This document shows positions 7,903 to 52,784 of a DNA stretch of 54,673 bases, in pieces. The notes under the pieces are model-generated. The model had not been told where the DNA came from and searched no databases. It was given only the letters and a program-made list of their open reading frames with translations. Position numbers and translations under genes: made by a program. The stretch's first letter is position 1; the number at the start of each line of letters is the position of its first letter. Source of the DNA: a virus; IMG/VR virus record IMGVR_UViG_3300020160_003718, positions 1 through 54,673 of that record; one strand, given 5' to 3'.

Positions 7903-10900
7903 ATGGCTGACAATTTAACTACGGCAACTATTGATGTAAGAGCAAATACAAGGGGTATGGAGAGAGATATCCTGAAGGCTCTTCAAACTGTTGAACTTTC
8001 ACAAATCAATACAAAGAAGAGTTCTCAGGCTTTGGGTAGGATTACGGGTCAAGTTTCTGAATTCAATAAGAGTTTAGAAGCGTCTAATGCTCGCGTTGTT
8101 GCTTTCGGGGCATCTGCTGGAGCTATTTTTGCGGTAGAAAAGGCTCTTTCGTCCTTGATATCCTCGACAATAAATGTTCAAAAGCAACTGGCTGACGTGA
8201 ACGTGTTGCTGAATCTTTCTTCTTCTAGTTTGGAAAAATTTGGAAGTAGTCTTTTTGATATAGCTAGAAACACAGCTCAATCTTTTTCGGAGGTTGCTAC
8301 GGCGGCAACAGAACTTTCACGTCAAGGCTTAGGGGTTGAAGAAACATTAAAAAGAACTAATGCCGCTCTTATTTTAACCAGGTTGAGTGGTTTAGATGCA
8401 AAATCTAGCGTTGAGGCGTTAACAGCTACTCTGAATTCATTTTCTGGGTCGGCTTTAGACGCGGTTGAGGTTGTTAATAAGCTGGCAAATGTGGACGCGG
8501 CTTTTGCTGTTAGTTCCGCTGATTTGGCTAACGCTATTAGTAGAGTTGGTTCTACCGCTGTTGACGCTGGCGTTTCATTAGATGAATTAATTGCTTTAGT
8601 TACTTCTGCTCAACAAACAACTGCTCGTGGTGGCGCTGTTATCGGTAACTCATTTAAAACAATTTTTACACGTTTGCAACGTGGAAAGGTTCAGGATTTG
8701 CTTGGTAGTCTTGGGGTTGATACTACTGAGGGACAAAGCGCAATTAGTTTGCTTCAGCAGCTGGCTTCTACTTATGATACTCTGGGAGCGTCTCAAAAAT
8801 CTTATGTAGCGGAACAAGTTGGTGGTGTTTTCCAAATTAACATTTTAAAAGCTGCACTTTCTGACCTCGGTAAAGAGTACAGTATATATGGTAGAGCGCT
8901 TGATACTTCTTTGTCATCTACTGATGAGGCGATAAGAAGAAATGAACTTTTAAATAAAACTGTATCAGCTCTTTCCAGTCAAACTGTTGCAAGTTTAGAA
9001 GAAGCAGCAAATAAAATTGGAACAATCGTTTTTGAGCCAAATGCTAAAGGATTTTTATCTGGATTTAATAATTTGTTAGAATCTTTTAATAATATAGATT
9101 CAGAAAGTGCCGGTGGGAAATTAATGGAGGGATTTTTCAAAGGTGTTAGTAATTTTATAGGTGGACCTGGTGCGGTTTTGGCAACAGCAGTTTTGGTAAA
9201 ACTGTTTGCTAGACTTGGGCAATTCGCCGCTGGTTCAGCCAAGGAGTTGCTTGGGACAAATAAGGCTGCTCAGCAACAGGCAGCAATAGAGCAAAGTATA
9301 CTGAGTATCTTGCAGAAGAACAGTCAATTTACTAGTCAAATATTGGCTGGTAAAATGACAACCGTTCAAGCTGAAAAGCAGATGTTAGATTACTTGACCG
9401 CTCAATCAAATATTTTAAGAGAACAAGAGAGATTGAGTAAAGTTATAGGTGCCAATTTGGCAATGAAGGGCGTTTCCGTTGGAGCTTCTGGCATACCAAT
9501 GACTGCGCCCGCTAAAAAAACAAAAGCGGCTGCTTCTGGATATATTCCAAATTTTGCCACAGATATGGCAGTTGGTCAGGCAATGGAAAGTGCTGGAGCC
9601 AGAGAACATGGTTATAAGGCTGGAAAAGCGAGAAAAACAACCATCCACGATGGTAATGGAAAATCATTTAAATCTTTTGTTAATAATAAAGAAGATGTAA
9701 AGACCTTTACTAATGCTGCTGGTAAAAAGGCTACAGTAGTTCGTCCGCCAAATGGATTTGGTGAAAATACTCAATATGCGGCTGGTGGATTTGTTCCCAA
9801 TTTTGCTGAAAAAAGAATAGCATCTGTTTTCAAGTCTGGATCGTCTTTGAGGGGGCTTTATGATACTGGTCCAGTCTTTGATATGTATAATGATTCGGCT
9901 GTGCTGAAATATGAAAGCTTGCCTAAAAAATACGAAGAATATAGAAAAGAAGGTAGATTTATCTTTGAGGAAGCTAGAAAAATTTATAATAATTCGGGCA
10001 ATGATATAGGAAAAGCAAATTCATATATATCAAAAAGAATTCCTGGCGGTTTTTCAAAAAAATTAAGCAAAGAGTATTTTGATAAACCATTTTCTGAAAA
10101 CGCTATAAATCCAATAGTTGGAGCGTTAGGCGAAAAAGATTTTTTTTCTAATAATCCTGAATTTTCTAAATTGGAAGATTATGTTGGTCCAGATTTTAAA
10201 AAGGGAGATTTGTTTGCAGAGGTAAAAATTCTTAGAAAAAAAATTTCAGAAAAAAAACTTTTAGAAAAGGCGTTAAGGGGGGCGGCGTATTCTTCTCCTA
10301 AAAAAACATTTAAAAATGAAGATAGGGATGTTATCTCGCCAAATTTAATTTTTGCTTCCGCTATAAAAGAATCCATGTCTTCTGGATTTGTCCCAAATTT
10401 TGCTTCGATGGGTAGCAAATTCAAGGCTATGTATGGTGGTGGAACCACAATGCGCGCTGTTGATAAAGAAAAAACCGCAAAGAAGAAAAACCTTGATGTA
10501 AAAAAACTTGATTTATCAGATAGATATACAATGGTTCATGGCGGCAATCAGGGTCTTGAATCGGCTAATGTTTCGCTAGAGGCTGGCAATAAGTTATTTG
10601 ATGCTAAAATAGCAACGGCTGGACTGAACACCGCCGGAACCAATTTGCAAAGATATGGAATTAAGGGATTGGTGGGAGACGCTTTGGTTGGTGCTACTAA
10701 TAACATAATTAAAACTTTTGGCGGCACGGAGCAGATAACCGACGCTTCTTCGTTGGACAACGCTGGCTCTGTTGGCTCTGCCGCTGGAACAGTTTTCGAA
10801 ACTGCTTTAAGAAAAGCGTTCAATGCTCCTGCTGTAAGTCAAACTCAAAGAATAGATTTTCCAGCTCCAACTCCTGAACTTAAAAAGTTTTTCCACAATG

Positions 10901-13900
10901 CTCCAGGGCAATATGAGGCTAAAATATCAAGAACTCCAGATAATTTAAAAAGCGCATTGAAAAAGTGGGTGGATGTTAATGGTCTTGCGTCTTCGGCTTC
11001 TGGTTTTGTTCCTAATTTTGCAAAATCTGGATTGTCATTTTCTCATAAAGATAAGGATGAATTTGGTTTTAGTGAAATTCAAGCCATAATGAGCGGAAAA
11101 AAGGTTGGATCATTTAGTTATGCTGAAGATAAAAAAGGATTGGTAGATGTTGGCGACTTTTCTGTTAACAAGAGTGAAAGAGGCAAGGGTATAGGCACTG
11201 AACTTTATAAAGAAGCAATAAGAAGAAATAGGGGCAAAAAAATGAAGGGGCAATTGCTGCCTCAAATGAATAGGTTATTGCAAAAGATAAAAAATGGCGA
11301 ACCCGTCTCTGCTGAAACTTTATACCCGCAAATTAAAAGAGCGGATTTAGCGAAAAGTTCCATGTTTGAAGTATATGGTCATAAGGGCATGACTGTTGAA
11401 AAAATGACGAGAGATCAATTCTCTTCTTTTGTTAATGCTAAAATTTCAGAACTTAAAAAAGACCCAAAAAAATTACAAAGCTATTTCGGAAATGTGGAGG
11501 CTGACGAATATGGCGGTCTTGGGGTCGATTTACAAACCCAACATGCTTCTGGCTTTGTGCCAAATTTCTTAGATATAAAAAGGGATGGCAGTTTGCCATT
11601 TGGAGTTAGAGGAAGAGCTAATTTTTCAAAACCAGGCTCGAAATCAAGTATCCAATTGGGAGTTGGAGCAACTCCAGACACGTTATTTCATGAGGCTTCT
11701 CATTTGGCTTATTCAAAAGCCACAATGTCAAAAGCTAATTCCAATGAGGGAATTGGTAGGTTCATTTCAGATCCTAAAAAATACGCTGGTGTTTCGTCCA
11801 TAATGGCTTCTTCTATATTTAAGAATGTAAATCAAAATGAATTGTTCAAATCATTAGGCTTGAATCCTGTTCAGTTGGATTTTGATGGTAGAAACCCGGG
11901 AGCTACATATTCTGGTGCTAAAGCAGTTGATGAAATTACTACAAGAATACAGGAAAAAATATTTAAAAATAAGGGGGACTTAGCTTCTCTTTCCGCGAAT
12001 GAAAATGCTTTTATTAAAAATGTTGAAGGTCTTGGTATTATAAGTAATAAGCGCATGTCGAATGTGTCCAGAAGATCTGCTGAGGGTTCGAAATTTAGAT
12101 CTCTAATTGAGGGTCGTTTTTCTTCTGCCATGGGCGGTGCGGCTGGTGGCTTTGTTCCTAATTTAGCCGATCAGGTTAGGAAAAATATGTATGATTGGGA
12201 CGGTACTATTATCCCAACAATACGAGGCGGCGCGGATGAGTATATAAAGCAATTGGGCTCATTAAAAGAAAAAGATCTTCTTCCGATAGGCAAAAAATTA
12301 AAAGCTGGCAAGAAAAAGTTTGATATATTAACGAGTCGCCCGCCGCTTTTTGAAAAAGCTATAAGCGAAACATCTTCAAGGCTCGGACTTCCTGTTAATA
12401 AGATTAATTTTGGTGTTAAACCAAAGGATAAGATTGCTGAAGCTGGAAGACGTGGCTCTAAAATTGTTGACGATAATCTTGATTTAATAGGAAAACCTGG
12501 TTTTTTAAACGCTAGGGTAGTTAATAAAAGATTAAGCTCTGGTTTTGTTCCTAATTTTTCAAGTGCTCTTAATGACGCAATCGCAAGAGAACAATCATCC
12601 GGATTGTCCAAGAGCCAAATATATGTTGATAGCCATAGCTCTTTAAAGAATAAAAATAACCCAATGGGGTTAATGGTGGCAAATAGGCGCGATGAGCCAG
12701 GTGGCGGAATTCAGGGAATTAAAAGAGCTAAAAAAGAGGGCAGGAATCCGAAAACTTATGGCGCGGGGATGTCGTCTGGTTTTGTACCAAATTTCGCTTT
12801 CTTGGGTCGCAGTGAAGCTGAAACTTCCGAAATAAATTCTTTGCAAGGTGAACTAAAAAAAATAGATTCTGAAATAGCGAATAGAAAAGCTGAAATAAAA
12901 AGTCGGCAGAAGGAATTGGCGGCTCTTAGAAATGATTTGAAGAAGGGCGCGGGAAACGCGGAGGCAGTCAAGCAGACTACGGATTTAGAAAACGAAAATA
13001 AGGGATATGAGCAGGCTAAATTAAAAAATCCTCAACTAAGTGCCGGGATGGATTTTAAAATTGCTGAAAATAATAAAAAAATAGCAGATATAAGAAATCA
13101 GCAAGCTGAAGCTATAAAAAAAGAAATTGAATCTACATTAGATATTAATAGGCAAAATCGTGACTTATTAACTGAAAAAATTAAAGAATCCGAGGTTGTG
13201 AATCAAAATCTTTCTACCAAGAAAAAAGAAACAAGTAAACTTGGTAAGGTGAAAAATTTTGTTGGTGGTAATGCCATGACTTTGGGTTTTGGACTACAGT
13301 CCGTTGCCTCTATTGCTGGAGAATTTGCGGGGAATGATGACACTCAAGCTGGCAGAACAACAAAGGCAGTGTCTGGGGGAATTGGGGACATAGCTAGTTT
13401 TGCTGGAACTGGAGCAATGATTGCTGGTCCTTGGGGGGCTGCTGCTGGTGCATTAGTTGGATTAGGCAAAGCGGCAATAGATGTTACGAAGGCTTTTAAT
13501 ACAAAAGTTCCAGATTTAGAAAAAGCGCTTCGAACCTCTTCTGATTCAATGGGTAGATTTAGCGAATCTGGTCAAAAATTATTGACTTTGAATGAGCAAT
13601 ATGGAGACGCTTTGATGTCTGGAAATCCAGCTCAAGCAGCGGACATAATGGTTAAAACTCAGCAGGCTTATGCAGAAGAATTGAGTAAGCTCACTGAGGT
13701 TCAAAGAAGCTCAATGATCTCTGCAATAGCTCAGGGCAAGGGGCAGGAAGAATATGCTAAAATACTTGGCGAGATGCAAAATTCCGTCAAGGCTCAAGAA
13801 ACTGCCACTCAATTGACTAAATTTTCTGAAAGTGGCAGTATATTTTCAGCGCCAGATAAAAAACTTTTAGCGGGCATGGACAAAGGATTGGCTTTGGATT

Positions 13901-16900
13901 TTACAAAAGGTATGGATACTGCCTCCATAACGGCGGCTTTGGAAAAATCAGCGCCATCTCTTTCTGACGCAAATCGTGGCACTGAAAATCAAGCACTAGA
14001 CTTGATGAAAAATTTAGCCAGCTCAGATTCTCTTACTGGAGATCAAAAAGAAAATTTGAATAAAATGATAGAGGCTTTTTCAAATGCTGCAGAAAATACT
14101 GATTTGAGCGCCGTTGCTGAAGGTTTTATAAAAAGTATAAAAGACAAGCCGAAATCTGACGCGGATGTTAAAAAGGCTCAGCAAGCTGCTAAGGTTGAAC
14201 TTGAGGCTAGAGCAGCGAAGGTGAAAAAAGAAATAGAAATAAGAGAGAAGACAAATGCGATGTTGATAAAGCTTCAATCGGATACTGAAGCTGTATACCA
14301 AAGATACAATAACTCAATGGAGGATTTTATTTCGTCCATACAGACCGCTTCCGAGATGATGGGCGCTGCTGGTCAGTTTAGGGAGGAATATTTGGCTCAA
14401 TCTGGGGCTAATAAGAATATTACAGACCCTATTAAAGAAAAAAATATAGTAAATAAAAGTAATGCTGATTTAAAGGTTGGGGTATATAAATCTCAACTAG
14501 ATACTAGTAAAAATTTCAACGAGGGAGTTAAAAGTTTATTATCTGGATTAGAAGCTGATTCGGCAAAAGCTGCAGTTGGGCAATCTGCAAGCGATCAATC
14601 AAGTCAATTTTTAGAGATGAAATCAAAACTTGAGCAGGCTCTTCTGCCTGTTGAAGAAATGATCACTAGCGGAAATTATGAAGGTGCCAAATCTAAAACT
14701 CAAGAGGTATTTGATCAGTTAAAACCGGAGGAAAGGACTGCAATTGGCGAAGATAAGATTGTTGGGGCGGTTAAGCAGCTGAATTCTGGAATTGATAAAG
14801 GTTCAAGAAGTCAAGATTTACTTGCTAAAAACTCGCAAAAAGATTTAGCTATCCAAGCCCAGCAGCTTGTATTTCAAAAAGCGATGACTAAGCTTACTCA
14901 GGCTCAAAATTTTGGAGGAACTTCTAATCAAATATTGGGCAATACTGAAGATTCACCATTTAATAAGGCTATTGAGGCTGTTACCAATGCTAAAATAATG
15001 GGATATAATCAAGCTGGATTGAAGCAAGGTAAAGAAAGCGCAGTTGAGGGCGGAGATAGGGAATCTTGGGGGGTGGATGGTAAAAAACCAAGTAATGCAA
15101 CGGCTGAGCAGATAGTGAATTTTTATAAGGCTGCTGGGGAGATTGGTGGGCAGTCAGTAATGTCAACCGAATCAAAAGATTTTGCAGCATTGATTCAGGC
15201 GCTAAGAGAGGAAAAGAGAAAAAAACTTGACGAACTTAAAGGAGCTGGTGAGGGAGTTGTAGATCAATCGGTATTTACAAGATTGGAAACGATCTTAGCC
15301 ACACTTGGCGGAGGTGATCAAGTTGCCAAAATGAAGCTAACAAACGAGTTGGGAGTTGCTAATTTTACTGGTAAACAAATACAAGATGAAGCATTGAAGG
15401 GATATACTGGCAGCGCTTTCCAGGGTTTAAATCCAGATCTTAAAAAAGCATTTGTAAATACCAGCGATGAAGGCGCGTCGGCTACATTTTTATTGCTTGC
15501 TGACCAGAAAAACCAAACGGCATCAATTCTTACTGGTCAAACTGCTCAAACAGATTCGCTTAATCAGGGGTTACAAGCTATAGTGAGCGCAGGCTTGGAT
15601 CAAAATGGTATATTGGCAGAACAACCTTCCGCTATAGCTCAAGCAATTGGAGCAATATTAGAAAAAGGTAGAGCCGAGCAAAAACAGGATCAATCGGTTC
15701 AAAAAGTTGCAGACTTAGTTGGCCAGGGGGAGAAGGTTGGTGCAACTATAGCGCAGAATGAGCAGTTGATATCGGAAGCAAGAACTAAATATGACGAAAT
15801 TGTTAAAAGTACAGGTTTTTCAGAAGAAGATTTAAAAGATGGAGAAAAATTAAAACAGGCTCAATCGTTTTTTCAGGGAAGAGGCAGGACAGAGTATATA
15901 GCGGAAGAATCAAAAAAAACAGGTAGGGCGCTTTCTCAATCTGATTATCAAAATAAATACGGAAAAACGGGATCTCTTGAAGAAAGAAGAAAAGGATATG
16001 TTGCGCAGCAATGGGATGAGCAAGCTAAACCTAATCAAGATTTTATAAATGCGGTAGAGGCTTTTAAGATGGCTCAAGAGCAATCAAAAATTATTAAAGA
16101 AAAAACAGGCGAAAATCAGGGTCTTACTAGTACAAAGCAGGAACTCAAAGCAAAGGAGATGACTGAAAGAAGTGCTCTGACTAAAATTATAAATGAAGAA
16201 GTAAACCCAAAAAGAAAACTTGCGGAAGTAGCTCAAAATACAATTTTAAATGAGCGTAGAACTGGGGGTCAAACTTACCTTGATAAGAACGAAGCTGCAA
16301 GGCAAGAAGCTGCCAAAAAGAAAGCTCTTGCGGAAAATCTTGGAATGCAGGATGGGGGAGATCTTACAACTGAACAACAAAAGAAAAATAAAGCCAGAAG
16401 TCAAGGACGTGGATTGGCAACCCCATCAGAACTTACTTTTAATAAGTTCAGTGGCAAAATGGATACATTCGAAAATGCTGCTATGCTTGAATTTGGTGGA
16501 GCTAATAACAAGTCTTTTGATAAGTTAATAAGTCAACAGGCTTTGCCAAGTTTTGAAAATTTTGCATCAGTATATGAAAAATTGGGAGGTGAAGGTAAGG
16601 GGCGAGAGTTTTACCAACAAACGAGGGCGGAATTGTTTGGAGCTGAAAAAACTGTGACTAAGCCAGCTGCTCCAGCTGCTCCAACTGCAACTACTCCTGA
16701 AAGCGTAAGTCAGGGAACTGCTGCCGCTATGGATCTTGAAAAGCGCAAGAAGAGCGAAATTGACAGTTTGATGCAGAAATATACAAAATATGGACAAGAT
16801 GGTAAAATGACATTTAATCCAAGAAATGGATTTGAATCTCAAGTAGAGCAAGAAGCATTCAATACAGAACTTGCAAATTTAAAGAAACAGCAAAGAGGAT

Positions 16901-17340
16901 ATACTTTAGAAAATGTTGGTGCCACTGGTCCAAATGTACAAGGAGCAACAACAAAAACTCAAGAACCTGCGGCAGCTCAAAAAACCAAACAAGAAGAGCA
17001 AAAGAAGCCTGAAACTGAAAAAGCGCAAGATCCTTCTCAATTAATTTCTAATATTTTAACAACTGTTAATCAAATAGCGGCGCAACTGCAAAAACAAGTT
17101 GCTCCAGCCGCAGCTGCTAATGGACAAGCTGGTGCTGTGGGACCAGTTAGCGTGAGTACGCCAGTAAACCTTTCAATAAACTCTACAGCTGGTGAAAATA
17201 AAACTGAAGTAGCAAGTGTTGCTGATCAAATAAAAAATGGCATATCTCAATTCTTTTCATCTCCAGAATTTCTGGAAAGAGTTACTACAATTGCAAAAAC
17301 TGCAGCTGGTAATCCTCCCCCTCCAAAGTCAATAGTGTAA
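7903..17340 (+). CDS. Giant tape measure protein with embedded cargo-like enzyme modules
   Basis: The protein has 3145 residues, starts after AAAAGGAT, and is the largest gene here. Residues about 10-300 match the core of TP901-type tape measure proteins (helical, with SEVATAATELSRQGLGVEE, LDELIALVTSAQQTTARGG and FKTIFTRLQRGKVQDLLGSL as landmarks). Residues 544-1632 contain eight copies of a short motif (SGFVPNFA and close variants) separating seven modules, several with enzyme-like motifs; each is listed separately. A long coiled coil follows at about 1633-1800. A glycine/alanine-rich hydrophobic stretch at about 1827-1860 may be the membrane-interacting segment used in DNA delivery. The rest to about 2870 is helical and Gln/Lys-rich, and the end is a Pro/Ala/Gln-rich tail. 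It sets tail length and is expelled at infection in known phages. The cargo role is inference. Confidence 0.9.
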   Translation: MADNLTTATIDVRANTRGMERDILKALQTVELSQINTKKSSQALGRITGQVSEFNKSLEASNARVVAFGASAGAIFAVEKALSSLISSTINVQKQLADVNVLLNLSSSSLEKFGSSLFDIARNTAQSFSEVATAATELSRQGLGVEETLKRTNAALILTRLSGLDAKSSVEALTATLNSFSGSALDAVEVVNKLANVDAAFAVSSADLANAISRVGSTAVDAGVSLDELIALVTSAQQTTARGGAVIGNSFKTIFTRLQRGKVQDLLGSLGVDTTEGQSAISLLQQLASTYDTLGASQKSYVAEQVGGVFQINILKAALSDLGKEYSIYGRALDTSLSSTDEAIRRNELLNKTVSALSSQTVASLEEAANKIGTIVFEPNAKGFLSGFNNLLESFNNIDSESAGGKLMEGFFKGVSNFIGGPGAVLATAVLVKLFARLGQFAAGSAKELLGTNKAAQQQAAIEQSILSILQKNSQFTSQILAGKMTTVQAEKQMLDYLTAQSNILREQERLSKVIGANLAMKGVSVGASGIPMTAPAKKTKAAASGYIPNFATDMAVGQAMESAGAREHGYKAGKARKTTIHDGNGKSFKSFVNNKEDVKTFTNAAGKKATVVRPPNGFGENTQYAAGGFVPNFAEKRIASVFKSGSSLRGLYDTGPVFDMYNDSAVLKYESLPKKYEEYRKEGRFIFEEARKIYNNSGNDIGKANSYISKRIPGGFSKKLSKEYFDKPFSENAINPIVGALGEKDFFSNNPEFSKLEDYVGPDFKKGDLFAEVKILRKKISEKKLLEKALRGAAYSSPKKTFKNEDRDVISPNLIFASAIKESMSSGFVPNFASMGSKFKAMYGGGTTMRAVDKEKTAKKKNLDVKKLDLSDRYTMVHGGNQGLESANVSLEAGNKLFDAKIATAGLNTAGTNLQRYGIKGLVGDALVGATNNIIKTFGGTEQITDASSLDNAGSVGSAAGTVFETALRKAFNAPAVSQTQRIDFPAPTPELKKFFHNAPGQYEAKISRTPDNLKSALKKWVDVNGLASSASGFVPNFAKSGLSFSHKDKDEFGFSEIQAIMSGKKVGSFSYAEDKKGLVDVGDFSVNKSERGKGIGTELYKEAIRRNRGKKMKGQLLPQMNRLLQKIKNGEPVSAETLYPQIKRADLAKSSMFEVYGHKGMTVEKMTRDQFSSFVNAKISELKKDPKKLQSYFGNVEADEYGGLGVDLQTQHASGFVPNFLDIKRDGSLPFGVRGRANFSKPGSKSSIQLGVGATPDTLFHEASHLAYSKATMSKANSNEGIGRFISDPKKYAGVSSIMASSIFKNVNQNELFKSLGLNPVQLDFDGRNPGATYSGAKAVDEITTRIQEKIFKNKGDLASLSANENAFIKNVEGLGIISNKRMSNVSRRSAEGSKFRSLIEGRFSSAMGGAAGGFVPNLADQVRKNMYDWDGTIIPTIRGGADEYIKQLGSLKEKDLLPIGKKLKAGKKKFDILTSRPPLFEKAISETSSRLGLPVNKINFGVKPKDKIAEAGRRGSKIVDDNLDLIGKPGFLNARVVNKRLSSGFVPNFSSALNDAIAREQSSGLSKSQIYVDSHSSLKNKNNPMGLMVANRRDEPGGGIQGIKRAKKEGRNPKTYGAGMSSGFVPNFAFLGRSEAETSEINSLQGELKKIDSEIANRKAEIKSRQKELAALRNDLKKGAGNAEAVKQTTDLENENKGYEQAKLKNPQLSAGMDFKIAENNKKIADIRNQQAEAIKKEIESTLDINRQNRDLLTEKIKESEVVNQNLSTKKKETSKLGKVKNFVGGNAMTLGFGLQSVASIAGEFAGNDDTQAGRTTKAVSGGIGDIASFAGTGAMIAGPWGAAAGALVGLGKAAIDVTKAFNTKVPDLEKALRTSSDSMGRFSESGQKLLTLNEQYGDALMSGNPAQAADIMVKTQQAYAEELSKLTEVQRSSMISAIAQGKGQEEYAKILGEMQNSVKAQETATQLTKFSESGSIFSAPDKKLLAGMDKGLALDFTKGMDTASITAALEKSAPSLSDANRGTENQALDLMKNLASSDSLTGDQKENLNKMIEAFSNAAENTDLSAVAEGFIKSIKDKPKSDADVKKAQQAAKVELEARAAKVKKEIEIREKTNAMLIKLQSDTEAVYQRYNNSMEDFISSIQTASEMMGAAGQFREEYLAQSGANKNITDPIKEKNIVNKSNADLKVGVYKSQLDTSKNFNEGVKSLLSGLEADSAKAAVGQSASDQSSQFLEMKSKLEQALLPVEEMITSGNYEGAKSKTQEVFDQLKPEERTAIGEDKIVGAVKQLNSGIDKGSRSQDLLAKNSQKDLAIQAQQLVFQKAMTKLTQAQNFGGTSNQILGNTEDSPFNKAIEAVTNAKIMGYNQAGLKQGKESAVEGGDRESWGVDGKKPSNATAEQIVNFYKAAGEIGGQSVMSTESKDFAALIQALREEKRKKLDELKGAGEGVVDQSVFTRLETILATLGGGDQVAKMKLTNELGVANFTGKQIQDEALKGYTGSAFQGLNPDLKKAFVNTSDEGASATFLLLADQKNQTASILTGQTAQTDSLNQGLQAIVSAGLDQNGILAEQPSAIAQAIGAILEKGRAEQKQDQSVQKVADLVGQGEKVGATIAQNEQLISEARTKYDEIVKSTGFSEEDLKDGEKLKQAQSFFQGRGRTEYIAEESKKTGRALSQSDYQNKYGKTGSLEERRKGYVAQQWDEQAKPNQDFINAVEAFKMAQEQSKIIKEKTGENQGLTSTKQELKAKEMTERSALTKIINEEVNPKRKLAEVAQNTILNERRTGGQTYLDKNEAARQEAAKKKALAENLGMQDGGDLTTEQQKKNKARSQGRGLATPSELTFNKFSGKMDTFENAAMLEFGGANNKSFDKLISQQALPSFENFASVYEKLGGEGKGREFYQQTRAELFGAEKTVTKPAAPAAPTATTPESVSQGTAAAMDLEKRKKSEIDSLMQKYTKYGQDGKMTFNPRNGFESQVEQEAFNTELANLKKQQRGYTLENVGATGPNVQGATTKTQEPAAAQKTKQEEQKKPETEKAQDPSQLISNILTTVNQIAAQLQKQVAPAAAANGQAGAVGPVSVSTPVNLSINSTAGENKTEVASVADQIKNGISQFFSSPEFLERVTTIAKTAAGNPPPPKSIV
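9559..9780 (+). other. Tape measure module 1: small uncharacterised domain
   Basis: This covers residues 553-626, between motif copies 1 and 2. It is basic and Gly/Asn-rich, with landmarks HGYKAGKARKTTIHDGNGKS and AAGKKATVVRPPNGFG. I recognise no fold. The conserved-looking H-D-G and R-P-P residues could be a small catalytic or binding domain, but no function is claimed. Confidence 0.4.
9808..10377 (+). other. Tape measure module 2: PD-(D/E)XK nuclease-like
   Basis: This covers residues 636-825, between motif copies 2 and 3. The segment GPDFKKGDLFAEVKI places Asp769, Glu773 and Lys775 in the D-(x)-ExK arrangement of PD-(D/E)XK nucleases. The upstream helix NPIVGALGEKDFF could supply the usual N-terminal acidic residue. 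The fold assignment is by motif only. Confidence 0.45.
10405..10995 (+). other. Tape measure module 3: second PD-(D/E)XK nuclease-like
   Basis: This covers residues 835-1031, between motif copies 3 and 4. It has AAGTVFETALRKAF (Glu966), then RIDFPAP (Asp985), then YEAKIS (Glu1005 and Lys1007). That is the E...D...ExK order of many PD-(D/E)XK nucleases. It is unlike module 2 outside the motif, so it is not a simple duplication. Confidence 0.48.
11023..11544 (+). other. Tape measure module 4: GNAT N-acetyltransferase-like
   Basis: This covers residues 1041-1214, between motif copies 4 and 5. The sequence GDFSVNKSERGKGIGTELYK contains the acetyl-CoA-binding loop of GNAT enzymes (R-G-K-G-I-G at 1093-1098) followed by the expected helix. 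It is preceded by beta strands (KKVGSFSYAED, LVDVGDFSV). The C-terminal third is helical and may be a separate subdomain. Confidence 0.6.
11572..12141 (+). other. Tape measure module 5: HExxH metallopeptidase-like
   Basis: This covers residues 1224-1413, between motif copies 5 and 6. FHEASHLAY holds an HExxH zinc motif at 1263-1267, preceded by a strand and TPDTL as in many zincins. DEITTRIQEKIF downstream could give the third ligand. It may be an autoprocessing protease or an injected peptidase; the sequence does not distinguish these. Confidence 0.5.
12169..12534 (+). other. Tape measure module 6: HAD-like phosphatase
   Basis: This covers residues 1423-1544, between motif copies 6 and 7. 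The HAD motifs appear in order: DWDGT at 1431-1435 (nucleophile Asp1431, acid Asp1433), LTSRP with Thr1477/Ser1478, a Lys in GVKPKDK, and VDDN with Asp1523/Asp1524. The domain is compact, similar to minimal HAD phosphatases or the phosphatase half of polynucleotide kinase. Confidence 0.65.
12562..12771 (+). other. Tape measure module 7: small uncharacterised domain
   Basis: This covers residues 1554-1623, between motif copies 7 and 8. Landmarks are QIYVDSHSSLKNKNNPMGLM and RRDEPGGGIQGIKRAKKEG. No family is recognised. Its size is similar to module 1. Confidence 0.4.
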
Positions 17341-26721: not shown

Positions 26722-27960
26722 TTATAAATTTCTTTGTATTTTGTCGCACCAGCCTTTGGATTCCGAGTGAGGCCAAACAACCCAATATAAGGGTTTTTCT
26801 TCAGTATTGAATTCTCTCCAAATTTTACAATACTTATCTGGATCATTCATTAGTCTACCTATTTCTTCTTTATGGGCGTCTTTTCTATAAAGCTCTTTTC
26901 CATCTGATCCGTGAAATGCAACTACCCAAAAATCATAATCTTTTTCTGGCACATCTTTGTATGCAACATCTATACAATGCTTAAAGATCCTTAAGAAGGA
27001 ATTTTGAAACTTTTCTTCTGAGTCGTATTGGGGGTTGGGCGGATTTTTGCGATCTATGGTTTCTTTTTGAACAGCTCTTTTTTTGAAAGATATTCCTGCA
27101 TATTTTTCATAATCCAGAAGGCTTCTTTCTTTACCGAATCCATAAATTCCAAAATCTATGTCCTGAATTTCCCCATCCATTCCGAATAATTTTCGGTTGC
27201 GCCTGTGGCAATTTTCGTTTTTTTGCCCCCAGGTTCTATCGTCATCCCAGTGTTTTGTTCTACCTTTTCTGGTATATTCGTGCCATGCAATTATTTTGTG
27301 AGGATGAAACAAGTCATATCCCCAAGTGAAGGCTCTTACAGCAATTGAAATTTCTTCTCCGTGAAAGTAATATTCTGGATCGTGAGGCACTTCTTTGCAA
27401 AAGACTCCATCAGTAAAACAAAAATGGGCAGAGTAAAAGCGGGCGGGAATTGGTTTTTGTAAATTTTTAAAATCTGGAATTGACGCTGGTAAAAAGAAAA
27501 TAGCCCCCTCTGGTATGAATCTATCAAAATCCATTTTCCACGGTACGCCTCCTCTGCCAGCCGGATCGTTATCTGGATCAAAACTAGAAATATAACTTGT
27601 GAGCAATGGCTTTTTGTATCCTTCCTCTCTAAGCCCTTCCAGCATGTTTATCAATTCTTCATCCCAATTTTTGATAAATCTATGGTGGCTATCTAGTTGA
27701 AGGGTGTATTTTTCTCCATTGTATTCTTGTTGAATCTTGTGTCTTGCCCAACATGCGCCCTTGGATTCTTGGTACGGAATATCAATTATCCTGAATCTAG
27801 GGTCATCTTTATATTTTTCAAGATTTTCTTCTTCCCCATGCTGCCAAGCGATTCCGAACCTTAAATTTTCTGGATATTTTGCGTTTTTAATGCAGTCGTC
27901 CAGAGTGGGAATCAGTTGAGGATCTCTGTATGAAGCAATTTGAATATAAATTGTTGACAT
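26722..27960 (-). CDS. GlcNAc-type glycosyltransferase (Skp1 GnT-like family)
   Basis: The 412-residue protein begins TIYIQIASYRDPQLIPTLDD, followed by RFGIAWQHGEE. It has LQLDSHHRF with the DxH metal-site motif near residue 90, HGEEISIAVRAFTWGYDLFHP near 210, and IIAWHEYTRKGRTKHWDDDR. This series is characteristic of the glycosyltransferase (GlcNAc) family that includes the Dictyostelium Skp1 GlcNAc-transferase and homologues in giant viruses, bacteria and phages. Glycosyl transfer from a UDP-sugar to a protein or glycan is expected; the acceptor is unknown. The first half is the GT-A catalytic domain. It is the terminal gene of the leftward island and its start lies 35 bases past the neighbouring gene's stop. 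Confidence 0.83.
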   Translation of the reverse strand: MSTIYIQIASYRDPQLIPTLDDCIKNAKYPENLRFGIAWQHGEEENLEKYKDDPRFRIIDIPYQESKGACWARHKIQQEYNGEKYTLQLDSHHRFIKNWDEELINMLEGLREEGYKKPLLTSYISSFDPDNDPAGRGGVPWKMDFDRFIPEGAIFFLPASIPDFKNLQKPIPARFYSAHFCFTDGVFCKEVPHDPEYYFHGEEISIAVRAFTWGYDLFHPHKIIAWHEYTRKGRTKHWDDDRTWGQKNENCHRRNRKLFGMDGEIQDIDFGIYGFGKERSLLDYEKYAGISFKKRAVQKETIDRKNPPNPQYDSEEKFQNSFLRIFKHCIDVAYKDVPEKDYDFWVVAFHGSDGKELYRKDAHKEEIGRLMNDPDKYCKIWREFNTEEKPLYWVVWPHSESKGWCDKIQRNL

Positions 27961-39873: not shown

Positions 39874-40681
39874 GTCTTATCTCTTTTTATGTTTTGGCAG
39901 ATCTTATATTTTAGACTGCCAGGATACAATTAAGACATTACGCTCTTGCGGCGATTCAAGATCAATAAATATTGTTACATTACCCGAGGATTACTTGTTT
40001 GCAAAAACGCTTGATATTTTCAATGAAATCTACACCTTTGACATAAAAAATCATAAATTATTTGATTTCTGCAAAACTAATTTTGAGAAATTCTGTCTTT
40101 TGCCAAGACTTGAGCTGTACAAGTTTTTAAACACGGATTATACAATAGTATTAGACACTGACATATTATGCTCACATAATGCTGACGAAGCTTGGAATTT
40201 TTTAATCAATAAAAATCAAGATCTAATAATGCTTGGCTCAAAAAATAATCCTTCATGGCACTGGGGATATTGGGGCGAAATTTGTTCTAAAATTAATATA
40301 AAGCCGCAAGAAACGCATGGCGGACTTTTTTTCTTAAAGAAAACAGATAATCTAGAAAAAATTTTTAACGATGCTAAAAAATGTTTTTTAAACTATGACA
40401 ACCTCGGAATGCTGAGATTTTATCAAAATGGCGCTGTGGACGAGCCATGTTTTTCTTACGCTTTTTCAAAGAATAATTTACAGCCAGTTGAGTTTTCAGA
40501 ATTTCCAATCATGACATTCAATTTAGGTTCAGAGGACGAAATTCCAACAAAAAAAATGACTGAAGAAAGACAGGCAAGCATAATGGAAGACTATATCCCA
40601 TTTATTCACATGTTTGAAAAAAATCATGGTAAAAACTTTTTAACAATAAAAGAAAAAATTATTCAAAATGCAAAAAATTAA
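39860..40681 (+). CDS. Putative glycosyltransferase (GT8/GT-A-like)
   Basis: The 273-residue protein contains LYKFLNTDYTIVLDTDILCS near residues 85-105, with a clear DTD metal motif after a hydrophobic strand, as in GT8-type enzymes. PQETHGGLFFLKKTDNLEKI follows in the position of the acceptor loop. HMFEKNHGKNF near the end is compatible with the terminal metal-ligand His. Its start overlaps the methyltransferase end by 14 bases and its end overlaps glf by 14 bases, so it belongs to the same transcript. Confidence 0.62.
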   Translation: MKKSESYLFLCFGRSYILDCQDTIKTLRSCGDSRSINIVTLPEDYLFAKTLDIFNEIYTFDIKNHKLFDFCKTNFEKFCLLPRLELYKFLNTDYTIVLDTDILCSHNADEAWNFLINKNQDLIMLGSKNNPSWHWGYWGEICSKINIKPQETHGGLFFLKKTDNLEKIFNDAKKCFLNYDNLGMLRFYQNGAVDEPCFSYAFSKNNLQPVEFSEFPIMTFNLGSEDEIPTKKMTEERQASIMEDYIPFIHMFEKNHGKNFLTIKEKIIQNAKN

Positions 40682-41660
40682 AATAGTGGGCTGCGGCTTA
40701 TCTGGCGCAACGGCGGCAAGAATTCTAAAGGATCGAGGCTATGATGTGACAGTCTTTGAAACAAGAAATCACATAGGCGGCAATTGTTATGATTCTAATG
40801 TTTGCGGAACCTTAATGCACAATTATGGACCGCATATATTTCACACTGACGATGAAGAAGTTTTTGAATTTTTAAGCAGATTCACTGAATGGATCAATTT
40901 TGAATTAAGACCAGTTGGAAACACTGTATTGGGAAAAATACCATTGCCATATCATGATACGGGTTGCGAAAAAGCCATTGGTAAAAAATTTACACAAGAA
41001 GATGTAATTAATTATATTTTCAAAGATTACTCAGAAAAGCAGTGGGGGGTTGAATTTGAAACTATTCCAAAAACAATCACCAATCGAATTCCGAAAACCA
41101 AAGACTGCGAAAACCCAACCTGGTTCGAGGGACAAAAATATCAATGTATTCCCAAACTCGGCTATACAAAAATGTTTGAAAAAATGCTGAGCGGAATAGA
41201 AGTAAAATTAAACTGTGGCGAAGATGAATGGAAAAACTCAGAATCTGATTTGATTATTTATACTGGACCAATTGATAAGTATTTTAATTATCATTATGGT
41301 AAGCTTCCATACAGATCCCTAAATTTCGAGCATACAACAACTTCTAAAAAAATGCCATTCTTTATTCAAAATGAAAATAATCGGATGGTAGAATACACTA
41401 GAATGTATGATCATAGTTTTTTTTCAGAAAATCACAAAGGATTAACTATAATAACTAAAGAATACCCTAAAAAATTTGAAGATGGAGACATTCCATATTA
41501 TCCAATACCATGGGGAGATTCACAAGAAACATATGAAAAATATAAAAAACTTGCAGAAAAAGAAAATAATGTTATCTTTTTGGGTAGACTTTCAACTTAT
41601 AAATACTTAGATATGTGGATGGCTGTTAAGCATGTAATGTTAAAATTAAAAAATATATGA
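40668..41660 (+). CDS. glf: UDP-galactopyranose mutase
   Basis: The 330-residue protein has the FAD-binding start KIVGCGLSGATAARIL, then VFETRNHIGGNCYD and NYGPHIFHTDDEEVFEFL. These are hallmark motifs of UDP-galactopyranose mutase, as is the C-terminal FLGRLSTYKYLDMWMAVKHV. The enzyme converts UDP-galactopyranose to UDP-galactofuranose using reduced FAD. It supplies a rare nucleotide sugar for the surrounding glycosyltransferases. The length is slightly shorter than bacterial Glf (about 370-390), mainly in the central region. ATGA overlap with the next gene. Confidence 0.95.
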   Translation: MQKIKIVGCGLSGATAARILKDRGYDVTVFETRNHIGGNCYDSNVCGTLMHNYGPHIFHTDDEEVFEFLSRFTEWINFELRPVGNTVLGKIPLPYHDTGCEKAIGKKFTQEDVINYIFKDYSEKQWGVEFETIPKTITNRIPKTKDCENPTWFEGQKYQCIPKLGYTKMFEKMLSGIEVKLNCGEDEWKNSESDLIIYTGPIDKYFNYHYGKLPYRSLNFEHTTTSKKMPFFIQNENNRMVEYTRMYDHSFFSENHKGLTIITKEYPKKFEDGDIPYYPIPWGDSQETYEKYKKLAEKENNVIFLGRLSTYKYLDMWMAVKHVMLKLKNI

Positions 41661-42736
41661 AAAAAGTAATTATCACGGGCGTAACCGGAATGGACGGTAG
41701 TCACATGGCTGACTTTTTAATTAATCATACCGACCATTTAATAGTCGCCGGAATAAGAAGGCTAAGCAACGACAATCACAAAAACATAAAGCATCTAAAA
41801 GATAACCCAAGATTTAAACTAATAGATCTAGACATTACTGATTCGTCAAATGTAGAGGCTGTAATAAGAGAAGAGAAGCCAGATTACTTTATTAATTTTG
41901 CCGCCAATTCTTTTGTTGGCAACAGCTGGACAATGCCTATCAATCATATGCAAACTAACTGCATGGCGGTTTTATATCAATTGGAAGCCATCAGAAAGTT
42001 TGCGCCTAATTGCAGATATTATCAGGCTGGCTCAAGTGAAGAATTCGGCGATGTTGTGACGGTTCCACAAGATGAAACTCATCCTATTAGACCAAGAAGT
42101 CCATATGGGGCATCAAAAGCTGCCGCAAGAATGCTTGTTAAGGTATACAGAGAATCTTATAATCTTTACGCAATTCAGGGGTGGCTCTTTAACCACGAAG
42201 GCCTACGCAGAGGGGTCGAATTCGTTACGCGAAAAATCACAAAAGCCGTAGCAAGAATTAAAAATGCAATAGATAATGGCGAAGAATTTGAACCACTTGA
42301 ACTTGGAAATTTAGATTCCAAAAGAGACTGGAGTGACGCTGAAGATTTTGTAGAAGGCATATGGAAAATGATAAATCAAGAAAAATATTGGGGCAGTGCT
42401 ACTTTAAGTATTTTTCCAGAATCAGAATACCCCAAACATATTAAAGAATATGTCCTTTCTTCCAATGAAACTCACACAATCCGCGAATTTGTTGAACTTG
42501 CATTTCAAGCGGCTGGAATTTTCGGCGAATGGATAGGTTCTGGCATCAGCGAAATTTTTAAAGAAAAAGAAAGTGGCAGAATTCTAATGGTGGTCAATGA
42601 AAAATTCTACAGGCCAGCCGAAGTTGATACTTTGCTTGGAGATTCATCGCTAGCAAGGGCAGATTTGGGATGGAAGCCGAAAACCTCTTTCGACCAACTT
42701 GTAAAAAAAATGGTAGAAAATGATTTGAAAAATTAA
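41657..42736 (+). CDS. gmd: GDP-mannose 4,6-dehydratase
   Basis: The protein has 359 residues. The NAD(P)-binding GVTGMDGSHMADFL (Gly8, Gly11, Gly14), catalytic GSSEEFG (126-131), Tyr150-x3-Lys154 in SPYGASKAAARML, and the substrate motifs FNHEGLRRGVEFVTRKI and LGNLDSKRDWSDAEDFVEG all match GDP-mannose dehydratase of the extended SDR family. It makes GDP-4-keto-6-deoxymannose, precursor of GDP-rhamnose, GDP-fucose and GDP-perosamine. No epimerase, reductase or aminotransferase lies next to it, so the final sugar depends on host enzymes or genes outside the window. Confidence 0.93.
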   Translation: MKKVIITGVTGMDGSHMADFLINHTDHLIVAGIRRLSNDNHKNIKHLKDNPRFKLIDLDITDSSNVEAVIREEKPDYFINFAANSFVGNSWTMPINHMQTNCMAVLYQLEAIRKFAPNCRYYQAGSSEEFGDVVTVPQDETHPIRPRSPYGASKAAARMLVKVYRESYNLYAIQGWLFNHEGLRRGVEFVTRKITKAVARIKNAIDNGEEFEPLELGNLDSKRDWSDAEDFVEGIWKMINQEKYWGSATLSIFPESEYPKHIKEYVLSSNETHTIREFVELAFQAAGIFGEWIGSGISEIFKEKESGRILMVVNEKFYRPAEVDTLLGDSSLARADLGWKPKTSFDQLVKKMVENDLKN

Positions 42737-50056: not shown

Positions 50057-51844
50057 ATGTTTTTAGAAAAATTCAAACCAATTACCTTGCCGTTGCATGG
50101 CGTAAGATGTCCATCAATCACCCTTGACCCAAGAGACAGGGTAGAATATGGAATTAAAAATGATGCTACAAACCTTGAAATTTTGCAAACATTATGCAAT
50201 CAAGGATTTAAGAAAATGCTCCCCGCTTGGAAGGAGCAGGGCGGTAATATAGAAGAGTACAAAAGCCGAGTCAAATTTGAAGTTGAAACACTGTCAAAAT
50301 TAGATTTTGTTGACTATATATTGATTATATGGGACGTATTTAATTTTTGTAACAAGAACAATATTCCAACTGGACTTGGAAGAGGAAGTGCGGCGGGAAG
50401 TCTTGTATTGTATCTACTTGGGGTAACAGGAATTGATCCAGTTAAATATGGTTTATTTTTTCAAAGATTTGTTTCGGAGGTTAGGGCTAAAAAGCAAATT
50501 GTTGACGGCGTAACTTACCTAGATGGCAAAATGATTGCCGATATCGATAGCGACATTTGCTATTATCGACGCAAAGAGGTGGTGAAGTATTTGGAAGAAA
50601 AGTATCCAAACAGAACTTCCAAAATGTTGACGGTATCGACCTTATCTGGAAAGGCTCTTATCAAAGATGCTGGTAAAATTATCGGAGAAAAAGAAGAAAC
50701 CGAGATGAATAAAATAACATCTCTCTTTACATCTAAATATGGCAAAGTTGCAGAGCCAGAAGAAATGTATGAAACAAGTGAAGAGTTTAAAGATTGGTGC
50801 GATGAAAATAAATTAATTTATGATACCGCTCTAAAACTAAAAAACCTTATTAGGAATAAGGGCGTTCACGCTTCTGGAATTGTTGTCAGCTATGAAGATT
50901 TAAATAAAACAACACCAACCGAACTTACAGCAGACAAAGAAACCGTTTCATCTTTTACGATGGATTGGGCGACAAAGATTAATATCAAGCTAGATTTGCT
51001 TGGCTTGAAAAGCGTCTCTGTCATTCATGAAGTGTCCAAGTTGGTTGGGGTTGATTATAAAAGTATCGACTTGGAAAGTTATGAAAATATTTACGCGCAC
51101 CTTCAGGAGCTTAAAAATCCTAAAGGATTGTTTCAAATTGAAGCTGATACTAATTACAAAGTTTGTAAAAAAGTTCAGCCCAAAAATTTGGACCAGCTTA
51201 GCGCTGTTGTAGCGCTGGCAAGACCCGGGGCCTTAGCGTTTGTGGATCAGTATGCGGCATATGCTCAAACCGGCGTTTTTCCAGAGAATGGGGAGCAAAT
51301 TGACGCAATTTTAAAGGAAACGGGCGGGGCGGTTCTTTATCAGGAAAGCTTGATGGCTATCGGTCATAAGGTTTTTGGCTTAACGCTTTCCGAAGCAGAA
51401 GTTTTAAGGAAAATAGTTGGCAAAAAGAAATCAGATGAAATGCCCGAGTGGGAGAGCAAAATTTACGACAAAGCGAAAGAACTTGGAATCTCCAAAGAGA
51501 TTGCTGATTTTTACTGGAATGCTCTTAGCGACAGTGCAAATTATTCTTTTTGCAAGTGCCTTTCTCCAGAGACGATTGTTCAGAAAACGGGCGGTGAATA
51601 TATTCCAATGATAGATGCAAAAATTGGAGATAAAATATTTTCATTTAATCCGGACACGAATCAAACAGAAGAAGCCGAAATATTAGACATTATGCTCTCA
51701 GAGGCGGAAATGTTCGAATTCGAGATGGAAGATGGCAGACTAATCACATGCTCTATGGATCATAAGTTTATGTGTGAAGATAAAAAGATGAGAAAAATTT
51801 CAGAAATTTTATCGAACAATCACAAGATTGTGTGTATAGAATAG
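50057..51844 (+). CDS. dnaE: DnaE-type DNA polymerase, N-extein fused to N-intein half
   Basis: The protein has 595 residues. Residues 1-500 are the polymerase part just after the PHP domain: GLGRGSAAGSLVLYLLG at about 106-122, acidic triad ADIDSDI (Asp162, Asp164), IKLDLLGLKSVSV with the third catalytic Asp, and IVGKKKSDEM. The extein ends SANYSFCK. Residue 501 is the intein Cys1; 501-595 are the N-terminal splicing half (CLSPETIVQ, block A; ITCSMDHKFMC, block B), ending KIVCIE and a stop. The rest of the polymerase is in the 52685 gene. Active enzyme requires protein trans-splicing. Confidence 0.92.
   Translation: MFLEKFKPITLPLHGVRCPSITLDPRDRVEYGIKNDATNLEILQTLCNQGFKKMLPAWKEQGGNIEEYKSRVKFEVETLSKLDFVDYILIIWDVFNFCNKNNIPTGLGRGSAAGSLVLYLLGVTGIDPVKYGLFFQRFVSEVRAKKQIVDGVTYLDGKMIADIDSDICYYRRKEVVKYLEEKYPNRTSKMLTVSTLSGKALIKDAGKIIGEKEETEMNKITSLFTSKYGKVAEPEEMYETSEEFKDWCDENKLIYDTALKLKNLIRNKGVHASGIVVSYEDLNKTTPTELTADKETVSSFTMDWATKINIKLDLLGLKSVSVIHEVSKLVGVDYKSIDLESYENIYAHLQELKNPKGLFQIEADTNYKVCKKVQPKNLDQLSAVVALARPGALAFVDQYAAYAQTGVFPENGEQIDAILKETGGAVLYQESLMAIGHKVFGLTLSEAEVLRKIVGKKKSDEMPEWESKIYDKAKELGISKEIADFYWNALSDSANYSFCKCLSPETIVQKTGGEYIPMIDAKIGDKIFSFNPDTNQTEEAEILDIMLSEAEMFEFEMEDGRLITCSMDHKFMCEDKKMRKISEILSNNHKIVCIE
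51557..51841 (+). other. N-terminal half of a split intein
   Basis: This covers 95 residues starting with Cys1 directly after the DnaE residues YSFCK. Block A is CLSPETIVQK, with AKIGDKIFSF following, and block B is RLITCSMDHKFMC with the conserved Thr and His. It ends at a stop codon one base before the homing endonuclease ATG, so splicing must occur in trans. Confidence 0.92.
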
Positions 51845-51845
51845 C

Positions 51846-52784
51846 ATGAGCTTATTAAAACTAGATTCACACTATCTCATACCAAAGAGCAATTTCAAAA
51901 TCTGCCTAATTGACAATAAAACAGATAAAGACATCATATCTATATATAATAAAAGGTCAGACGGCCCATACTACTTAGATAAATTTTGTAAGTATATCGA
52001 AAAATTTCATAATATTTCTATTATCGAGTATTGTGAAAAATATTTAAATATAAAATGGCCTAAATGCCCAAGCAAAAATACAAAAGTAGGATTCAGATGC
52101 AGGGGGAACGGCTTAATTTTAAGCATTTATTCAAGAGGGGGGGTGAATAAATCCACTTGTGAAAACTTTAAAAAAGGGTGTGAAAAGTTGTCGAAAGATA
52201 GAATTGGTAACAAAAATCCAATGCACGGCAAAAAACCCTGGAATCTCGGAAGATCTTATGAGAGCCCAAAGATGAAAGGTAGAAAGCTTTCCGCCGAACA
52301 TATAAATAAATTAAAACAAGCAAGAGCAAATAGTCCAATCAAAGCAAGGCATACTCAAAAACACTCCGAAGAAACAAAGCAAATATTAAAAATAAGACAA
52401 GCTGAAAAATGGAAAAATGGCGTTTTCAATAGAAAAACCTCAATAGAGTTCAAGGTAGAAGAGTTTTTAAAAGAAATTAATTTATCAGGCGATTTTAAAT
52501 TCCAGGAGCAGGTTGAGTACTTTACGCTTGACTTTGGTGACAATAAGCGTAAAATAGGAATAGAGTGTCAGGGGACGTTTTTTCATGTTGATCCTAGATT
52601 TTATCCAGATGGAGCAGTCTACCCAATTCAAAAAAGAAACCTGAGCAGGGATACAAGCAAAAGAAAATTTTTTAAAAAATTAAAATGGACAATAATAGAA
52701 TTGTGGGAAACGGAGATAAACAACGGGAGCTTCAAGGAAATACTAATGTCAAAATTGTTGGAATTAGGAGTTCTAGAAGCCTAG
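51846..52784 (+). CDS. Free-standing homing endonuclease (NUMOD3 plus Vsr-like EDxHD)
   Basis: The protein has 312 residues. An N-terminal cysteine-containing region is followed by NUMOD3-type DNA-binding repeats (RIGNKNPMHGKKPWNLG at about 119-135, LSAEHINKLKQAR, HSEETKQILKIRQAEKWKNG). The nuclease is Vsr-like, with Glu201, Asp229 (FTLDFG), IGIECQGTFFHVDPRF (Glu240, His247) and RDTSKRKFFKKLKWTIIELW (Asp269). This is the EDxHD family, known from free-standing genes between split-intein halves. It would cut intein-less dnaE alleles and spread the element. It starts one base after the N-half stop and overlaps the C-half gene by 100 bases in another frame. Confidence 0.85.
   Translation: MSLLKLDSHYLIPKSNFKICLIDNKTDKDIISIYNKRSDGPYYLDKFCKYIEKFHNISIIEYCEKYLNIKWPKCPSKNTKVGFRCRGNGLILSIYSRGGVNKSTCENFKKGCEKLSKDRIGNKNPMHGKKPWNLGRSYESPKMKGRKLSAEHINKLKQARANSPIKARHTQKHSEETKQILKIRQAEKWKNGVFNRKTSIEFKVEEFLKEINLSGDFKFQEQVEYFTLDFGDNKRKIGIECQGTFFHVDPRFYPDGAVYPIQKRNLSRDTSKRKFFKKLKWTIIELWETEINNGSFKEILMSKLLELGVLEA

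Follow-up and report, generated by a model that had tools for sequence, protein, structure and literature searches.

The window analysed here, a 54,673-nucleotide stretch of viral DNA (IMG/VR record IMGVR_UViG_3300020160_003718, positions 1 to 54,673), carries a gene (7903..17340, plus strand, as are all features described below) that encodes a tape measure protein (TMP) of 3145 amino acids. This assignment was first made in a sequence-only reading and is upheld by a Pfam search, which recovers the PhageMin_Tail domain with E=8e-24, and by matches to tape-measure families of PHROG, the best of which is PHROG 4211 (1.7e-42). The PhageMin_Tail domain (8266..8826; residues 122-308) lies inside a conserved N-terminal part comprising residues 1-543, and an HMM of the TMP N-terminus matches 121 ORFs in the fetched set. 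At the opposite end, residues 1633-3145 (12799..17337) form a C-terminal part that is free of the motif described below. Among the neighbouring genes, weak matches to tail families occur upstream only (phrog_290, phrog_3269), and most neighbours have no match.

Between these two parts, a short peptide of the pattern [AS]xG[FY][VI]PN[FL]A, or similar, occurs eight times: ASGYIPNFA (copy 1, residue 544; 9532..9558), AGGFVPNFA (copy 2, residue 627; 9781..9807), SSGFVPNFA (copy 3, residue 826; 10378..10404), ASGFVPNFA (copy 4, residue 1032; 10996..11022), ASGFVPNFL (copy 5, residue 1215; 11545..11571), AGGFVPNLA (copy 6, residue 1414; 12142..12168), SSGFVPNFS (copy 7, residue 1545; 12535..12561) and SSGFVPNFA (copy 8, residue 1624; 12772..12798). 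The eight positions listed in the sequence-only reading, from residue 544 to 1624, match exactly. Searching all six frames of the window for GFVPNFA with up to two substitutions yielded a single unrelated minus-strand stretch besides these copies, and the string is absent from the open-access papers that made up the literature searched. A profile was built from 359 copies, drawn from this TMP and related ones; against it, the eight copies score 26.8–33.6 bits, whereas the best of 200 whole-protein shuffles reaches 11.6, ruling out a chance origin. Across the copies, glycine is encoded by three different codons, valine by four and proline by three; thus, as had been claimed, conservation lies in the peptide, not in the DNA. 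Simple DNA repetition as the source of the motif is ruled out by these codon differences together with the short DNA identity.

The copies are separated by intervals of 74, 190, 197, 174, 190, 122 and 70 residues. The earlier proposal that each motif is followed by a module of 70-197 residues holds for the lengths, but the first interval and the last one probably carry no cargo. Both are conserved elements, which would leave five cargo modules in the window and not seven. The N-terminal element (9559..9780; residues 553-626) contains a 49-residue core with 71 domain matches, which is conserved near the array start in about 70 TMPs. The last interval holds an anchor element of 70 amino acids (12562..12771; ...AIxRE..AG...NPMGLMVANxRDEP...) that closes the array. 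The anchor or a related second type is present in 72 of 73 complete TMPs and directly precedes the last motif in 64 of those 72. Profile comparison gave no support for the first-slot and last-slot elements being one family. The anchor has no relative in the PDB and no match among 50,697 GenBank phages; in genome_contigs it matched one short MAG contig, and a single-sequence scan gave no match.

The five cargo modules differ in their predicted activities. Module 2 (9808..10377, abutting copy 3 at 10378; 190 aa) shows a GALGE...GPDF...FAEVK pattern and is possibly PD-(D/E)xK nuclease-like. It has a relative in L003 (86%) and weak ones in L025 and L072, lacks a Pfam match and is folded in part in its AF2 model. 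Module 3 (10405..10995; 197 aa) is modelled by AF2 as one confident domain. An alignment of 41 sequences shows invariant G, D and K and near-invariant FE, a PD-(D/E)xK-like pattern that marks it as a putative, unconfirmed nuclease. In neither the PDB nor BFVD did Foldseek, given a model of modules 2-3, return a significant match; for module 3, the nuclease interpretation therefore derives from conserved residues. Module 4 (11023..11544; 174 aa) contains a GNAT acetyltransferase domain (Pfam Acetyltransf_1, 24.0 bits versus a cut-off of 20.7). Module 5 (11572..12141; 190 aa) carries HEASH, also found in L007 and as HELFH in L006, and is a putative, unconfirmed zincin-like metallopeptidase; it has no Pfam match and a low-confidence AF2 model. 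Its relatives occur in 3 of 145 ORFs with at least two motifs. Module 6 (12169..12534; 122 aa) has a HAD-type phosphatase fold with DWDGT, TSR and DD motifs. Its AF2 model (pLDDT 84-98) matches vegetative storage protein 4fyp (Foldseek prob 0.99, E 0.008) and, second, the T4 PNKP phosphatase 5uj0 (prob 0.63).

Structure prediction had been proposed as a check on the modular reading, and it resolves at least two modules as separate domains. In the AlphaFold models the motifs sit mostly in linkers with pLDDT of about 25-55, values that may partly come from shallow alignments, beside domains with pLDDT >90. A single continuous fold across the motifs was looked for and not found.

The same layout recurs in IMG/VR, where dozens of TMPs, all from uncultivated contigs, carry 2-12 motif copies between fixed N-terminal and C-terminal parts. 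In the 73 complete TMPs of this kind, the first copy lies at residue 547-649 and the motif-free C-terminal part measures 1250-2090 aa (10th to 90th percentile for both). The array measures 341-1556 aa; the coefficient of variation in length is 0.06 for the N-terminal part, 0.53 for the array and 0.23 for the C-terminal part. Individual modules span 67-304 aa (10th to 90th percentile). The motif is largely confined to TMPs, which account for 73 of 85 ORFs from a DNA-pattern scan, and within TMPs it is restricted to the array, with 0 of 33 copies after the anchor. Copies in unrelated positions, away from module boundaries, were searched for and did not turn up. A few junctions between fused modules hold degenerate copies (GFIPSFA in L004, RFLPNFA in L006).

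Comparison of relatives bears out the suggestion that modules are swapped: the motif is the point at which they are gained and lost, reordered and transferred horizontally. Of 242 similarity breakpoints, 62% fall within 10 residues of a motif, against an expected 10.6%. The TMP of L003 is 94% identical to ours up to residue 1222; modules 5 and 6 are then exactly missing, and the alignment resumes at a motif. A P-loop module is 92% identical between TMPs whose N-termini are ~40% identical. Order also changes: a P-loop module precedes the GNAT module in L006 and follows it in L004 and L005. The coincidence of breakpoints and motif could also be read as a recombination scar, an exchange site of short homology that has no role in the protein. 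However, DNA identity between motif copies is short, with one 33-bp match of 88% for the array's first 1 kb. Codons were free to differ while the peptide was kept, which argues for selection on the peptide. This explanation is already disfavoured, and we consider it improbable.

Clustering of 587 modules gave 111 clusters. Single polypeptides join several disparate domains, GNAT and HAD here and SNase, P-loop and others in relatives. The GNAT acetyltransferase, HAD phosphatase, staphylococcal-type nuclease (SNase) and P-loop modules are supported as enzymes. The P-loop module was identified in relatives, as was the SNase module, which scores 28 bits (cut-off 21), matches thermonuclease chains at 1e-9 and has an invariant DGD and further invariant residues. 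Other modules appear nuclease-, kinase- or ADP-ribosyltransferase-like by motif; profile searches against the PDB gave no support for the last two classes. Most of 131 sampled modules had no match in Pfam, NCBIfam or PADLOC, and the few matches were mostly weak. Neither these 131 modules nor the TMP of the window gave a Pfam match to a peptidoglycan hydrolase.

In known siphophages, the length of the TMP sets the length of the tail. With arrays varying so widely in length, the modules might be inert filler that tunes tail length or bulk, their enzymatic activity lost. Catalytic-type residues nevertheless stay invariant even among divergent modules, including the D and K in all 41 module 3 relatives and the DGD of the SNase modules, and the predicted folds are globular rather than coiled coil. 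We give this possibility little weight.

Exchangeable enzyme-like modules, in a layout recurring in many uncultivated phages, suggest instead that the ruler doubles as a protein magazine. We propose that the TMP is probably both ruler and cargo carrier, with the array ejected along with the DNA and the motif serving as a boundary peptide read by a partner. Between the fixed N-terminal and C-terminal parts would lie an array whose modules, mostly enzyme-like, fold independently and are each bracketed by the short conserved peptide in a flexible linker. The cargo set would here comprise two nuclease-like modules, a GNAT acetyltransferase, a putative zincin peptidase and a HAD phosphatase, with the anchor closing the array. 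At infection, the TMP would be expelled ahead of the DNA and the modules, fully or partly unfolded, would travel along and then act in the newly infected cell in DNA or RNA processing, protein modification or counter-defence. Injection is suggested by analogy with T5, whose TMP is expelled and cleaved beside an enzymatic domain (PMC10038345), and with lambda, whose TMP is found at the inner membrane while injection proceeds (PMC13190303). As all modules share one boundary, phages could trade them and keep an intact ruler.

The partner reading this boundary signal would be matched to each phage. Motif copies within one TMP are more alike than copies from different TMPs at four positions (p 0.001-0.014), the outcome expected of a phage-matched reader; crossovers that leave the motif with the recipient could also produce it. 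The peptide most likely acts as a processing site that frees the modules, or else as a docking or handling site that orders them in the tail. In its strict form the former, in which a phage protease cuts every copy at assembly or after ejection and yields a separate N-terminal part, cargo proteins and C-terminal part, is a tentative but serious possibility. It fits the bracketing of N modules by N+1 motifs, the predicted position of the motif in flexible linkers, the phage-specific motif dialects and the cleavage of the T5 and lambda TMPs, the T5 cut separating an enzyme domain (PMC10038345). Polyvalent proteins, too, are likely processed by zincin peptidases, and this array holds the HEASH module. 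Yet no candidate protease or other reader was identified, zincin-like modules are as rare as noted above, the roughly nine conserved positions exceed what is usual for a cut site, and cutting at all copies would divide the ruler in two. We are slightly more doubtful of the alternative that the motif is a docking or handling peptide, which would bind to the wall of the tail tube, to a chaperone of tail assembly or to a partner in translocation and so space and align modules for threading through the lumen. The aromatic-aliphatic-PN-aromatic core resembles a short linear motif, the peptide also flanks the non-cargo anchor and N-terminal element, and dialects exist inside one TMP. However, the motif is missing from the remaining TMP, which needs handling too, and the irregular copy spacing (67-304 aa) implies no fixed tube register.

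The proposed carrier shares features with several known systems, of which polyvalent proteins come closest. Polyvalent proteins are long phage polypeptides that, like this TMP, join disparate activities; their entry into the host along with the DNA is predicted, and processing by zincin-like peptidases is likely (Iyer et al. 2017; PMC5512222). In contrast, the proposed carrier in this phage is a tape measure protein, a type of protein that the main text of PMC5512222 does not mention, and one fixed peptide separates the modules next to a fixed anchor, an arrangement not found in the consulted portion of that paper. T5 pb2 and SPbeta YomI (annotated as a transglycosylase) are, as here, TMPs with enzyme domains. 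They carry one or two wall-cleaving domains in place of an array, and our array has no recognised peptidoglycan hydrolase; for pb2 proteolytic separation and ejection are documented (PMC10038345), whereas both are proposed here. Polymorphic toxin systems likewise combine a constant delivery part with interchangeable effector-like modules, but they swap a C-terminal toxin, usually along with an immunity gene (PMC3482391); here several modules are internal and a long motif-free C-terminal part follows, so no variable toxin sits at the extreme C-terminus. In crAss001, cargo proteins stored in the tail are extruded before the DNA in a partly unfolded state, as we propose for the modules, but they are separate proteins in a barrel-shaped tail and not parts of a TMP (PMC10172136). 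A survey of shuffled phage protein fragments obtained a sequence-level mosaic signal for TMPs and could not confirm genuine recent mosaicism (Smug et al. 2023; PMC10684548), unlike the TMP pairs found here, which are clear cases of it. A tape-measure carrier with a fixed delimiter was not found in the literature searched.

We are inclined to see here a widespread, undescribed architecture in which the tail ruler of many uncultivated phages is also a magazine of interchangeable effectors, set apart by a delimiter that a phage-matched factor reads. The first minutes of an infection hinge on the proteins that enter with phage DNA, few of which, to our knowledge, are known beyond model phages. With a conserved delimiter, candidates can be located from sequence, since each motif pair encloses a candidate injected effector, and the 111 module clusters already come from a small sample. 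If the proposal is true, a phage lineage could change its early-infection protein set by swapping cassettes.

The window spans 54,673 bases and is a virus record from IMG/VR; its tape measure protein (TMP) is encoded by an ORF of 3145 residues on the plus strand (7903–17340). Eight copies of a nine-residue SGFVPNFA-like motif, which the sequence-only reading had placed at residues 544, 627, 826, 1032, 1215, 1414, 1545 and 1624, are indeed present, scoring 26.8–33.6 bits with a profile built from this TMP and its relatives, versus a best score of 11.6 in 200 shuffles. At the DNA level the copies vary at synonymous positions and thus, as had been proposed, the peptide itself is the conserved entity. 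The profile of 359 copies reads [AS]xG[FY][VI]PN[FY]A; the invariance of G, P and N follows from how the search pattern was built, and conservation is slight outside positions –3 to +6. The TMPs of two relatives, L010 and L011, use a dialect, GHVPNYA/GFVPNYA, with Tyr at position 5 in nearly all copies.

Using the N-terminal 543 residues as a query, we retrieved nine IMG/VR relatives, and a DNA-pattern scan for GFVPNFA matched at least 120 stretches; the relatives are metagenomic contigs throughout. Comparing these proteins, a check suggested in the sequence-only reading, reveals that the modules between motifs are exchanged among relatives. L003, the TMP of a 134-kb contig, is 94% identical to the window protein up to residue 1222 and resumes the match at 1545; modules 5 and 6 (numbered by the interval after each motif) are missing, and the gap lies exactly between motifs. 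Three further relatives (L004, L005 and L006) diverge at residues 634–638, i.e. at motif 2, and regain the match at or near later motifs. Module order varies too, with a P-loop module preceding the GNAT module in L006 and following it in L004 and L005. Of 242 breakpoints across 171 pairs, 62% fall no more than 10 residues from a motif, versus 10.6% expected. A conserved motif can shift the point where an alignment stops by a few residues, but not by the tens by which random breakpoints would miss it. The breakpoints are partly non-independent because pairs have common ancestry; collapsing neighbouring ones left 163, of which 53% are equally close to a motif. Moreover, 27 module pairs exceed the identity of their N-termini by at least 15 points; in one of them, the P-loop modules of the relatives L136 and L144 are 92% identical while their N-termini share 40%. 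These cases of TMP module shuffling are recent and clean. In a survey of mosaicism among phage proteins, the authors were unable to confirm recent events for tape measure proteins (PMC10684548).

The exchanged modules form an array of variable length within an otherwise regular protein. In 73 complete TMPs, the first motif copy falls at residue 547–649 and the motif-free C-terminal part spans 1250–2090 residues (both 10–90%), whereas the array measures 341–1556 residues; the coefficients of variation are 0.06, 0.23 and 0.53, respectively. About 70 TMPs carry a 49-residue element near the array start. The array is closed by an anchor of about 70 residues with invariant RE, NPxG, VxN and EP, which sits immediately before the last motif in 64 TMPs, counting a second type of similar length. 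One or the other type occurs in 72 of the 73 complete TMPs, a figure biased upward as many were fetched via the anchor; among the pattern-scan matches listed, the first type is found in seven of eight complete ORFs. The first type is encoded in 439 IMG/VR stretches, and no cultured phage among 50,697 records was found to carry the anchor at the sensitivity used. In the complete TMPs among the pattern-scan matches listed, none of the 33 motif copies follows the anchor. An open frame of 146 aa (12171–12611, minus strand) antisense to the module 6/anchor region is probably incidental.

The motif proved largely confined to TMPs: among the matches listed, 85 distinct ORFs encode the exact peptide, and 73 of these are recognised as TMPs by their repeated motifs or by a profile of the N-terminus, C-terminus or anchor. 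Among the remainder listed, five ORFs of about 1830 residues (L034, L068, L081, L099 and L123) share one motif context, a single GGFVPNFAN near residue 1620, and several others look like chance matches. Of the five, L034 was profiled and gave a match to phrog_6651 (E=3e-39), a family of internal virion proteins. Internal virion proteins are another class of protein ejected by phages, and GGFVPNFAN in these ORFs may have arisen by chance or be the motif put to a further use.

Structure prediction revealed no continuous fold through the motifs in either region modelled. In the model of residues 620–1045, module 3 has pLDDT values mostly >90 and the three motif stretches lie in segments with values of about 30–55. 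In that of residues 1205–1650, module 6 (84–98) and the anchor (about 80) are flanked by motifs of low confidence. The models support an array of separate domains on flexible linkers; relatives of modules 2 and 5 are too scarce for their models to be firm.

The 595 intervals gave 587 modules after a length cut (median 157 residues), falling into 111 clusters. Assignments of window module 4 as GNAT, of P-loop modules in arrays and of staphylococcal nuclease modules in several relatives are supported, as is a predicted HAD fold for module 6. In Foldseek, the AlphaFold model of module 6 was closest to a vegetative storage protein of plants; the phosphatase domain of T4 polynucleotide kinase was also among the matches, and DWDGT, TSR and DD motifs back the HAD fold. 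From residue patterns only, module 5 is a putative zincin (HEASH), modules 2 and 3 are putatively PD-(D/E)xK-like, and relatives carry putative ADP-ribosyltransferase-like and kinase-like modules. All 41 aligned module 3 sequences keep the same Asp and the same Lys, which argues for an active enzyme; its confident model found no match among solved or viral structures. P-loop and HAD modules occur together in the arrays of L005 and of another relative, L093. Given the likeness of the HAD model to the T4 Pnkp phosphatase, the pair might, speculatively, act in RNA end repair.

Elsewhere in the window (50057–53965), the NTPase/finger and HHH/OB parts of DNA polymerase III alpha lie in two separate ORFs. 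The ORF between them weakly matches NUMOD3 and MTES_1575 REase, with a weak intein-splicing match upstream; the insertion is likely a homing endonuclease or intein. Phage-borne sugar genes at 26722–27960 (minus strand), 40668–41660 and 41657–42736 comprise a GlcNAc-type glycosyltransferase, a UDP-galactopyranose mutase and a GDP-mannose dehydratase-like epimerase.

The motif string was absent from the literature searched. The nearest concept to the array is that of polyvalent proteins, described in a paper whose main text does not mention tape measure proteins (PMC5512222). Tape measure proteins with wall-cleaving domains lack such an array. Polymorphic toxins swap a C-terminal toxin, a feature looked for and not found in these TMPs.

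Tape measure proteins occupy the tail and leave first at ejection. Within one TMP, motif copies are more alike than between TMPs at four positions, which fits a matched reader of the motif in each phage; the same pattern would arise if crossovers left the recipient's own motif in place. A processing (cleavage) site is slightly favoured as the motif's role because N+1 motifs surround N modules, and docking or simple insulation may instead be its role. The T5 tape measure protein is cut beside an enzyme domain and is expelled (PMC10038345), that of lambda contacts inner-membrane proteins during injection (PMC13190303), and tail cargo of crAss001 is obliged to unfold partly (PMC10172136). By analogy with these phages, the array would be ejected along with the ruler, and its modules would refold inside the host.
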